Origin: Methanosarcina mazei S-6 | GTDB lineage: Archaea; Halobacteriota; Methanosarcinia; Methanosarcinales; Methanosarcinaceae | Direction of reading: 5' to 3' | NCBI RefSeq assembly: GCF_000970205.1 | Contig: NZ_CP009512.1 | Coordinates: 2,294,001-2,358,000 of the forward strand | Length of the DNA stretch: 64,000 bases | In this document: one piece after another, positions 6,072 through 19,592 of the stretch | Layout: every line of letters begins with the position of its first letter | How positions within the stretch are numbered: position 1 is the stretch's first letter | Made by a program: the position numbers and the translations under genes | The notes under the pieces: generated by a model | The model's input: only the letters and a program-made list of their open reading frames with translations | The model's database searches: none | What the model was told of the DNA's origin: nothing

Positions 6072-7367
6072 TCACCCTTCAGTCCTGAATGAATCTGATT
6101 GGAAAACTTCCTGATATGCCGGAGAAGCAAATGTTCCGCAGTTCACTGGCTCGAGACTCCTTATCAGCTCAAGAAGCTTTCGTTTATTCAAGTCCTCTTT
6201 TTGCATAACAAATGAAATGCTGCTGTTTAACATTTTCATTTCCTGCATACTCAGGTCTTTAGAAGTGCATACAATTACAGGGATGTCCACGGTTTGAGGG
6301 TTTTTCTTGAGGGCTTTTATTACTTCAAATCCGGAAACATCCGGCATGTTAAGGTCAAGAATTATAGCATCGGGAATTTCTGTGGATGCTTTATCAATTG
6401 CTTCTTTTCCTCCCTGTGCCAGGCTGATAACGTAACCCTCGAATTCAATCATGGAAGACATAAGTTCCAGCATGGATTCCTGGTCATCCGCGATCAGGAT
6501 TTTTGGGGAGTCCTTTTTTAAATTCGTTTTCAAACGGTCAAGGCTTGAAAGCAGGACTGATTTGTCAACCGGTTTTACAAGATGGTCAAATGCTCCCCAG
6601 AGCATCTTGCAGTCGTTTTTTTCGGTTATTGAAAGGACAAGCACCGGAATCCCGGAAGTCACGCTGTCTTTTTTCAGGTTTTCAAGAACATCCCATCCGT
6701 TCATTTCCGGAAGCATAAGGTCCAGAGTGATCACAAAAGGCTTTAGTTTCTGGGCAAGGGAGAGAGCTTCTTCTCCGGTTGCAGCCTGGACTACTCTGTA
6801 TCCTGCTTCTTTTAATGTGAAAACCAGAAGCTCCCTGGACAGCCTGTCATCTTCAACAACCATAACAAGAGGAGCAGAGACATCAGAACCACAGGATTTG
6901 AAATCAACAGAGATATCTTCCATTTTCGGCATTTTGACCGGAATTTCTGCTCCGGATTCGGTCAGTTCATTTAGAACTATGGGTTCAACCGGTTTCCCGG
7001 ATTCAACTGCTTTCCCTGTTATAACAGGAGCTTCAATGGCATTCGTTTCACATGTTTCGGCTGTTTCATGTGCCGTTTCAGCTGTTTCATGTGCCCGGAA
7101 TATTTCCCCGGATTTCAGGGTCTTAACAGGGACCTCAAAAGTGAAGGTTGAGCCTTTTCCGGGCTCACTTTCAACCCATATCCTTCCTCCGTGCATCTCT
7201 ACAAATTTCTTTGAAAGCACGAGACCGAGCCCTGTCCCTTCGTATTTTCGACTAAGTGTGGAATCAATCTGCTTGAAGGGCTTGAAGAGCTGTTTGATTT
7301 CATCTTTAGAAATTCCTATGCCGGTATCGGATACTGAAACCCTGACCCCTTTTTCAGATACTATCCC
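6072..7367 (-). pseudogene. Hybrid histidine kinase, C-terminal part (ATPase end plus two receiver domains), severed by IS
   Basis: The fragment supplies the rest of the HATPase domain (VSDTGIGI G1 box, F box FKPFKQ, GTGLGL G2 box) and then two receiver domains: the first from about VMVVEDDRLSRELL with phospho-site TLDLMLPEMNGWD and Lys in LVKPVD, the second from ILIADDQESMLELM with ILDLNMPDVSGFE. The second lacks a clear conserved Lys (FVMQKED), so it may not be a standard phospho-switch. An ATG supplied by the insertion sequence at 7382 could start this piece, but without the phospho-acceptor helix. Joined to the part at 8543-10003 it makes a 918-residue kinase. Confidence 0.85.
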
Positions 7368-17484: not shown

Positions 17485-18012
17485 ATCAAAGCAGGGCCGG
17501 GAAGTTCAAAAGCTGCAAAAGATATAATCGGACAGCCGTTTCCTGAAATAACATCAAAATCACTTGCAGGGAGAGTTGTACATCTTCCGGAAGAGGTGAA
17601 AGGAAAAGTAACGCTCGTCTGTATTGCTTTTATTCGAAGTGCGCAGAGCATGATAGATTCATGGGCTCGACCTTTTGAGCAGGAGTTCGGGAAAGATAGA
17701 AGGTTTACGGTTTACGAAGTTCCCATGATAAATAAAGGCTGGAAGGTCCTTTCCCGGATGATCGATTCCGGAATGAGAGGAGGAATACCTGTAGAAAAAC
17801 ATGATAATGTGGTCACTTTCTACGGGGACTATTCAGGCTACCGGAACGCTCTTGGAATGGAAAATACAGAGCTTGCATACGTTTTTTTACTGGATCAGGA
17901 GGGTGTTATCTGCTGGAAAGGGGAGGGTTATTCCAGCCATGAAACCGAAAAGAAACTTCTCAGCACTGCAATGGCTCTCAGACCAGCAGCTCTCAAACAA
18001 CGGGGTCTTTAA
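17485..18012 (+). CDS. ATP10-like thioredoxin-fold protein
   Basis: GTG 17596 gives 138 residues, but the frame is open upstream and encodes a plausible segment (FIKAGPGSSKAAKDIIGQPF, then EITSKSLAGRVVHLPEE). A run of six G (17474-17479) precedes ATC 17485 by five bases. The body, with VTLVCIAFIRSAQSMIDSW, FYGDYSGYRNALGMEN and AYVFLLDQEGVICWKGEGY, resembles the ATP10/peroxiredoxin-like fold; in mitochondria ATP10 assists ATP-synthase assembly. No redox CxxC pair is seen. The gene ends 18 bp before the sugar-dehydrogenase start and the two are probably co-transcribed. The family assignment is tentative. Confidence 0.6.
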   Translation: MKAGPGSSKAAKDIIGQPFPEITSKSLAGRVVHLPEEVKGKVTLVCIAFIRSAQSMIDSWARPFEQEFGKDRRFTVYEVPMINKGWKVLSRMIDSGMRGGIPVEKHDNVVTFYGDYSGYRNALGMENTELAYVFLLDQEGVICWKGEGYSSHETEKKLLSTAMALRPAALKQRGL

Positions 18013-18030
18013 GTAAAAATGGAGGGGAAA

Positions 18031-19176
18031 ATGAAAGGGACAAGGATAATACTTGGCTTTTTTGCTCTTGCCATACTTATTTTTTCAGCTTATGCTGTCC
18101 TGAGAACCGTGCCCATTAACGAATGCGGGGATAACGGGACAGGCATTGAATGTATCGGACTTCCTCCGGGTTTTTCCATTGATTATTATGCCGAAGGTGT
18201 TGAAGGTGCGAGGTCCATGGCTCTCAGTCCGGAAGGAACGCTTTTTGCAGGAAGCCGGGGTGCCGGGAAACTCTATGCCATGACCGACCGGAACGGAGAC
18301 AATAAAGCTGATGATGTACTCGTAATTGCCGAGGGCCTGGATATGCCCAATGGGGTGGCATTCAGGAATGGTTCACTTTATGTAGCCGAAATTTCAAGGG
18401 TGCTCCGGTACGATGATATCGAAGCAAGACTTGAAAATCCTCCCGACCCTGCAGTTGTCAGAGGAGACTTCCCTGCAGACAGGTCGCACGGCTGGAAATA
18501 CATAAAGTTCGGACCGGATGGAAAGCTGTATGTGCCTGTCGGTATGCCGTGCAATGTCTGCAACCTCGAAGAGGAAGAGGAACGCTATGGGACGATGATG
18601 CGTATGGAGCCTGACGGGAGCCAGCCCGAGATTTTTGCAAGAGGGATAAGGAATACGGTAGGTTTTGCCTGGAACCCCGAAACCGGAGAGTTGTGGTTTA
18701 CTGACAACGGCAGGGACTGGCTGGGGGATGATCTGCCTCCGGATGAACTCAACAGGGCGCCCGTGCCCGGGATGCACTTTGGCTTTCCATACTGCCATGG
18801 GAAAGATACCCCTGACCCGGAATACGGAGAATTCCGGAACTGCTCGGAGTTTACAGCGCCTGAGGTTGAACTGGGCCCGCACGTGGCTGCACTCGGTATG
18901 ACCTTTTACAATGGCAGCATGTTCCCGGAAGAATACAGGAACCAGATCTTTATTGCCGAGCACGGTTCCTGGAACAGGAAAATTCCCATAGGCTACAGGG
19001 TTTCCCTTGTCAGGCTTGAGAACGGGACTCCTGTAAGTTATGAGCCTTTTGCAGACGGCTGGCTTCAGGGGCTTGCGTCCTGGGGAAGGCCTGTGGATGT
19101 GCTTGTAATGCCTGACGGAGCTCTGCTTGTGTCGGACGATAAAAATAATGCTATTTACAGGATCAGTTACAGCTGA
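18031..19176 (+). CDS. PQQ-type glucose/sorbosone dehydrogenase (beta-propeller), secreted
   Basis: About 381 residues. An N-terminal hydrophobic segment (IILGFFALAILIFSAYAVL) acts as signal or anchor. The propeller then shows MALSPEGTLFAGSR, MPNGVAFRNGSLYVAEI, FGPDGKLYVPVGMPCNVCN, RGIRNTVGFAWNPETGELWFTDNGRDWLGDD, FIAEHGSWNR and GRPVDVLVMPDGALLVSDD, all typical of soluble glucose dehydrogenase/sorbosone dehydrogenase proteins. GGAGGGG lies directly before ATG 18031, so this start is chosen over ATG 18019. Whether an archaeon without evident PQQ synthesis uses the cofactor is open; many homologues are propellers of unknown substrate. Confidence 0.88.
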   Translation: MKGTRIILGFFALAILIFSAYAVLRTVPINECGDNGTGIECIGLPPGFSIDYYAEGVEGARSMALSPEGTLFAGSRGAGKLYAMTDRNGDNKADDVLVIAEGLDMPNGVAFRNGSLYVAEISRVLRYDDIEARLENPPDPAVVRGDFPADRSHGWKYIKFGPDGKLYVPVGMPCNVCNLEEEEERYGTMMRMEPDGSQPEIFARGIRNTVGFAWNPETGELWFTDNGRDWLGDDLPPDELNRAPVPGMHFGFPYCHGKDTPDPEYGEFRNCSEFTAPEVELGPHVAALGMTFYNGSMFPEEYRNQIFIAEHGSWNRKIPIGYRVSLVRLENGTPVSYEPFADGWLQGLASWGRPVDVLVMPDGALLVSDDKNNAIYRISYS

Positions 19177-19307
19177 AAGTAATGCCTTAAAAACACATTT
19201 TAAACATAGTCAGGAGAGCCGGAATAATTGAAAAGCCTGCCGAATTCCGAATTCAGTAAAATTACTTATGATTATATCTTCATATACGATAAGCAGGGGG
19301 TAAATAA

Positions 19308-19592
19308 TTGTTATCTAAAATTCCTGTAGACCTTAAGAAAATATCCGGAGAAGATATAGATAAGGAAATTCTCAGAGCCGGGATTGTTGCCGAGATCGAT
19401 GCCATAAATCTTTATGAGCAGATGGCTGCCCTTACGCAAAATGAAAATATAAAACGTGTCCTTCTGGATGTGGCAAAAGAAGAAAAAACACATATAGGGG
19501 AGTTTCAGGCACTTTTACTCAGGTTTGATGCGCAGCAAAAACAGGAACTTGAAGAAGGAAGTAAGGAGGTTGAAGAGGAGCTGTCCAGGTGA
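19308..19592 (+). CDS. Encapsulated-ferritin-like (EncFtn) protein without encapsulin
   Basis: A 94-residue two-helix protein with Glu29 (AEIDAINLYEQ), Glu59 and His62 (KEEKTHIGEF). The spacing 30 and 3 residues equals that of Glu32/Glu62/His65 of bacterial EncFtn, which oxidises Fe2+ as an annular decamer inside encapsulin shells. The sequence is also close to the ferritin-like domain fused to the Pyrococcus furiosus encapsulin, as I recall it. No shell gene is in the window and the C-terminus shows no targeting peptide. The start is TTG, eight bases after GGGGGT. The probable role is iron oxidation or oxygen protection. Confidence 0.85.
   Translation: MLSKIPVDLKKISGEDIDKEILRAGIVAEIDAINLYEQMAALTQNENIKRVLLDVAKEEKTHIGEFQALLLRFDAQQKQELEEGSKEVEEELSR

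Follow-up and report, generated by a model that had tools for sequence, protein, structure and literature searches.

Proteins of the encapsulated-ferritin (EncFtn) type are known as cargo encoded beside an encapsulin and bearing a targeting peptide (TP), as in Rru_A0973 and EncB/EncC, and as a domain fused to a shell, as in Pyrococcus furiosus PFC_05175 (5n5e/2e0z, fusion-FLP). In the available part of PMC5012862 the ferroxidase site of Rru-EncFtn is given as Glu32, Glu62 and His65, and EncFtn without its shell is said to be unable to mineralise iron; the available part of PMC7762939 adds that EncFtn sites have a tyrosine nearby and that ferroxidation by O2 has been demonstrated for EncFtn, the preferred oxidant being left open. 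Shell-less EncFtns as a kind are already in print. He et al. 2016 named an EncFtn-related group without encapsulin 'Non-EncFtn' (PMC5012862, partial text), and Eren et al. 2024 described short TP-less forms (s-FLP), first called non-encapsulated, as mainly bacterial, leaving their encapsulation open (PMC11202242, partial text). No mention of Methanosarcina was found in the accessible portion of the shell survey of Andreas and Giessen 2021 (PMC8346489), and that of a 2026 paper on the Methanoperedens mini-bacterioferritin does not mention EncFtn (PMC13168243). The limited open-licence literature searched yielded nothing on Methanosarcina EncFtn or on shell-free EncFtn in methanogens.

The window analysed here, a stretch of 64,000 nucleotides from Methanosarcina mazei S-6, encodes a short protein that resembles each of these systems in part. 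With PFC_05175 it shares about 50% identity over the domain, the fold, the ligands and the archaeal DxxxEExA/TH motif described for fusion-FLPs (PMC11202242, partial text), but it is unfused, its reading frame ends where the domain ends and its genome has no shell gene. The TP-bearing EncFtns encoded beside encapsulins, including those of 24 loci from other families of the same phylum, have the same fold and Glu/Glu/His site, whereas the window protein lacks both a tail of the T-[IV]-G-[SA]-L type and an adjacent encapsulin. Like the s-FLP NE0167 of Nitrosomonas europaea (3k6c) and the 'Non-EncFtn' group it is short and TP-less, with the s-FLP features of about 95 amino acids, no targeting peptide and a predicted EncFtn fold; its sequence, however, is only weakly similar to NE0167 (phmmer E 0.081), which lies outside the tree described below. 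As regards a strict definition of an encapsulated ferritin, no shell is encoded or fused and there is no C-terminal targeting peptide. Rubrerythrin and sulerythrin share the ferritin-like di-iron helical hairpin. Rubrerythrin has four helices in its chain, two ExxH motifs and a rubredoxin domain, whereas the window protein has 94 amino acids, two main helices, one ExxH and no rubredoxin domain.

The gene and its product

The features of the locus are as follows (clades A and B are two groups of paralogues treated below):

17596 to 18012, + strand: ATP10-type gene (PF05176), second gene upstream; homologue at 10 of 21 clade A loci
18019 to 19176, + strand: glucose/sorbosone dehydrogenase-like gene (PF07995), upstream neighbour; homologue at 13 of 21 clade A loci
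19263 to 19269, + strand: TATA-box-like TACTTAT, about 45 nt 5' of the start codon
19296 to 19300, + strand: Shine-Dalgarno-like GGGGG ahead of the TTG start
19308 to 19592, + strand: gene of the stand-alone EncFtn-like protein, 94 amino acids, clade A; predicted ferroxidase ligands Glu29, Glu59 and His62 with Tyr36

The reading frame begins with TTG and lies exactly where an earlier note, made from the sequence alone, had placed it. Of the 21 Methanosarcina clade A loci, all have a Shine-Dalgarno-like motif and 19 also have a TATA-like site some 45 nt ahead of the start, including loci that have moved to other neighbourhoods. The site at 19263 to 19269 suggests a promoter belonging to the EncFtn-like gene itself, and from these motifs the Methanosarcina clade A gene looks singly transcribed. 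An operon with the upstream sugar-dehydrogenase-like gene was considered and is weakened because clade A genes keep their own Shine-Dalgarno- and TATA-like sites where the upstream genes differ; the PF07995 gene is a conserved neighbour, probably with a separate transcript. Additional clade A copies in Methanosarcina (L053, L055, L058; L056, L062, L063) sit in unrelated neighbourhoods and retain promoter-like and Shine-Dalgarno-like sites.

The product is a real, conserved ferritin-like protein of the EncFtn type, in agreement with the homology claimed in the earlier note. The resemblance is well above what chance would give: the top solved structure in phmmer is the encapsulated-ferritin domain of PFC_05175 (5n5e, E 1.3e-23), followed by 2e0z and EncC and, lower, by EncB. 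The protein passes the Pfam cut-offs of EncFtn-like PF22277 (28.3 against 27 bits) and of Rubrerythrin PF02915 (31.4 against 22.8 bits), stays below the curated cut-off of the NCBIfam family EncB_fam NF058679 (70.3 against 90 bits) and has no match to the cage ferritin family PF00210 among Pfam families at E<=1. An AlphaFold2 model built from 37 sequences (mean pLDDT 93.1) places helices at residues 14-42, 46-73 and 75-93, so that the predicted fold is the EncFtn arrangement of two long antiparallel helices with a short C-terminal third. With this model Foldseek put 5n5e on top (E 4.2e-06), as did VIA-align (Z 11.6, rmsd 2.7, 89 residues), and the Rru, Hoch and Mx EncFtns and NE0167 came after it, 3k6c being second by VIA (Z 10.6, rmsd 2.6, 87 aligned). 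Rubrerythrin-like structures match the model too, with VIA Z of at most 8.8, and all listed EncFtn structures rank above them. Values of Z between 8 and 11 are only moderate for helical hairpins; therefore the assignment rests on the sequence match.

The spacing of the predicted ligands, 30 residues from Glu29 to Glu59 and 3 more to His62, is that of Glu32, Glu62 and His65 in Rru-EncFtn, as the note had read it, and Tyr36 is likely the counterpart of the tyrosine near the EncFtn site. Glu29, Tyr36, Glu59 and His62 are invariant in 103 aligned rows (83 of 83 in clade A, 13 of 13 in clade B and 7 of 7 shell-fused). Glu65 is invariant in clade A and in the fused rows, and is Met in all 13 rows of clade B. 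The gene is under purifying selection, with a median dN/dS of 0.087 in 15 clade A genes (93 computable of 105 pairs), and a homologue is present in 28 of 30 Methanosarcina genomes (E<=0.001). Within these 30 genomes, G001 has no clade A gene and G023 no match. A further genome, G029, is without clade A, and its clade B copy (L086) is shortened by a stop codon and appears pseudogene-like.

Shells and targeting peptides

The earlier note had reported neither an encapsulin nor a targeting peptide, had asked for a genome-wide search and had allowed that the shell may lie elsewhere. The genome is a single contig of 4.14 Mb, 99.97% complete. It contains no match to PF04454 (Linocin_M18/encapsulin), for which three control genomes were positive, or to the phage capsid family PF05065, whose controls were positive as well; for PF19307 there was no match either, but the control genomes gave none and the search is uninformative. 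With neither a PF04454 nor a PF05065 protein anywhere in the genome, the idea of a shell encoded elsewhere is not supported: a hidden shell is rejected for these two families, the PF19307 search being without a working control. A shell fused or frameshifted 3' of the reading frame was also looked for and none was found; the best 80 of at least 441 relatives, 64-80% identical, all stop at 92-98 amino acids and none is fused.

PF04454 matches occur in 2 of 77 carrier genomes (2 of 50 and 0 of 27), which represent 78 of the best 80 loci among the at least 441 relatives, and both are Methanolobus genomes in which the match lies amid provirus head genes (L168, L169). The phylum was sampled with 392 genomes: an EncFtn-like match (E<=1e-8) is present in 187 and a PF04454 match in 50. 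Strong EncFtn-like matches (E<=1e-29) were counted by hand in 94 of the 392, nine of which also have PF04454. In eight of these nine (G001, G062, G071, G079, G086, G088, G101, G291) the PF04454 gene is beside provirus head/tail homologues, and the eight loci share one provirus type, with matches to tape measure, tail and head. The remaining locus, L220 (genome G054), has no match to the provirus reference set, and its neighbours resemble head/tail genes by eye. Hence the PF04454 matches in the Methanosarcinaceae that carry stand-alone genes and in G291 were rejected as shells. The provirus capsids of L087, L217-L219 and L221-L224 exceed the PF04454 cut-off, and automatic annotation could label them encapsulins. 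Around the stand-alone genes outside Methanosarcina, gene families are shared by at most eight neighbourhoods, and the recurring families listed are unlike shell genes by eye.

True cargo of the same phylum supplied a positive set of 24 strong encapsulin loci (L181-L204), each having an EncFtn gene within 1.5 kb of flanking sequence. All 24 of these EncFtn genes end in a T/V/I-I/V-G-S/A-L/M targeting core, a pattern picked after inspecting those same 24 tails. The core is missing from all 83 rows of clade A, all 13 of clade B and all seven fused rows, the latter trimmed to the EncFtn domain for this scoring, so that the claim of a missing targeting peptide is borne out. A broader consensus taken from a review fits no stand-alone tail, but it is a poor detector, as it fits only 4 of the 24 positive tails. 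A 25th encapsulin-like locus, L205, is the provirus capsid of G291 and has no EncFtn alongside. In a third architecture EncFtn and shell are joined in one frame of 335-339 amino acids; it is seen in six genomes (L210-L215) from a single family, which we infer to be Archaeoglobaceae. A large family without a true encapsulin in the genomes examined, set against the TP-EncFtn/encapsulin operon or the fused form in the same phylum, makes a clean natural comparison, and the role of a ferroxidase when nothing is stored becomes directly testable. Laboratory genetics is available for Methanosarcina.

A broad family with two paralogues

The earlier note had treated the gene as a lone orphan, a view that does not hold: the protein is a member of a broad stand-alone family across archaea and bacteria, and one of two paralogues in its own genome. 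At least 441 relatives were confirmed among named genome contigs. Their archaeal labels include Methanosarcinaceae, Bathyarchaeota, DPANN lineages, Thermoplasmata, Hadesarchaea, Njordarchaeota, Methanofastidiosum and Archaeoglobus, and their labels among bacterial metagenome-assembled genomes (MAGs) Nitrospirae, Patescibacteria, WOR-3, Actinomycetota, Deltaproteobacteria and Dehalococcoidia; single labels and single absences are weak, since most relatives are MAGs. The open-licence literature searched yielded nothing on the breadth of this shell-less archaeal-type family, on how it contrasts within one phylum with the TP-bearing and the fused forms, on the A/B tandem or on the stress operons described below.

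The second paralogue, of clade B, lies at C1:1302128-1302385 (L068, about 6129-6398) and gave a match of 55% identity at C1:1302134; its likely start codon is CTG, which most clade B genes of Methanosarcina have at the equivalent position. Eight Methanosarcinaceae loci from outside Methanosarcina (L104, L113, L126, L127, L128, L133, L161, L166) have the B gene behind the A gene, with a gap of 11-18 bp in seven of them, an arrangement that suggests a two-subunit complex. In Methanosarcina the A and B genes are apart, B being upstream of a LigD 3'-phosphoesterase gene. In L068 (from 6662 onward) and its relatives L069-L085 the B gene is conserved near genes for LigD 3'-phosphoesterase, a DUF4325 STAS-like protein and a PIN-domain protein, and a C1-peptidase/lectin/PKD gene runs divergently from it.

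A quick maximum-likelihood tree was built from 103 rows and 94 columns, with a midpoint root and no bootstrap. Clade B forms one clade of 13 rows in it, with SH-aLRT 100. The seven fused rows also form one clade (99), placed within the stand-alone rows and next to a pair of stand-alone genes from their own family (84, 87); this nesting is a lead only, because the columns are few, many forks are weak, there is no bootstrap and the root is at the midpoint. Tentatively, the shell-free EncFtn might be the original and common state of the archaeal-type lineage, a free ring ferroxidase of anaerobes that acts together with bacterioferritin or classical ferritins; the fused form of Pyrococcus and Archaeoglobus would then have arisen later, when a stand-alone gene joined a capsid gene, and a tandem duplication in Methanosarcinaceae would have produced the two-subunit A+B version.

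Function and rival readings

The best-supported reading, which we consider fairly probable, is that the protein works as a free di-iron ferroxidase in the detoxification of iron and in oxidative stress. The protein would be a free cytosolic two-helix EncFtn-type molecule, two copies of which would pair to create one symmetric di-iron site with two glutamates, one histidine and a nearby tyrosine from each, and the pairs may assemble, by analogy, into an open annular ring. On exposure to O2 or peroxide, Fe2+ would be bound and oxidised to Fe3+; Fenton-active iron would be removed and the oxidant consumed. Having no cage of its own, the protein would hand the ferric iron to bacterioferritin or to other ligands, and none would be mineralised in an encapsulin. 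It counts against this reading that EncFtn alone cannot mineralise iron, so that a free form must have another iron acceptor. The suggestion of an iron oxidase without storage holds for the protein itself only: the genome encodes a bacterioferritin-like protein of 156 amino acids (PF00210, 125.7 bits; bacterioferritin by eye).

The Methanosarcina neighbours of the clade A gene also speak against it, as they include no stress genes and give no hint of function. Outside this genus some copies are near genes for ferritin, superoxide reductase, SOD, peroxiredoxin or rubrerythrin. An operon of Thermoplasmata has, by Pfam, the order peroxiredoxin, ferritin, EncFtn-like gene and desulfoferrodoxin; the genes ahead of this row look by eye like Hcp and FprA, and those behind it like BCP and rubrerythrin. 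In an operon of G291 the ferritin gene (Pfam) overlaps the start of the EncFtn-like gene, and a 39-aa desulforedoxin-like reading frame and then a cation transporter (both by eye) make up the 3' part. Of 69 non-Methanosarcina loci, however, only 12 have a stress gene within 1 kb; without the three query-supplying loci the figure is 9 of 66, and in three of those nine the stress gene is on the opposite strand. In the nearest 1 kb there are 1.52 hits per 10 kb; the zone at 4-6 kb has none, and that at 6-10 kb has a single one in 311 kb.

Some of this evidence can also be read in favour of a rubrerythrin-type peroxidase, whose di-iron site would reduce H2O2 with electrons from rubredoxin or desulforedoxin, iron oxidation being incidental. 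Since rubrerythrin-like proteins share the fold match, sulerythrin and rubrerythrin being among the listed structures, such a role keeps some probability; the protein also exceeds the PF02915 cut-off, and some copies adjoin desulfoferrodoxin or desulforedoxin-like genes and peroxiredoxin. We nevertheless regard it as unlikely, for the single ExxH motif, the two main helices and the missing rubredoxin domain speak against it, and the rubrerythrins rank below every EncFtn structure listed. The invariance of the first-shell ligands and the tyrosine in both A and B weighs against a metal buffer, sensor or scaffold binding Fe, Zn or Mn with little ferroxidase activity, in which a mixed A+B complex would have a regulatory role. 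The close A/B tandem in Methanosarcinaceae and the Met that clade B has in place of Glu65 of the A and fused forms would fit this proposal, which appears to us quite improbable.

To encapsulation in a shell outside PF04454 and PF05065 we give very little credence. According to the accessible text of a review, short TP-less forms could theoretically be encapsulated (PMC11202242); the PF19307 search was without a working control and encapsulin families 3 and 4 are outside the searches. Against this stand the lack of either searched family in the own genome, the 75 of 77 carrier genomes without PF04454 and the provirus nature of the remaining two, the absence of a targeting peptide from every clade A row, and neighbourhoods in which no widely recurring or shell-like family was recognised. 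As a further observation on neighbourhoods, in two Methanofastidiosum genomes (L144, L151) the EncFtn-like gene stands after a gene for an 851-aa SMC/Rad50-like ATPase (by eye) and before a 181-aa gene.
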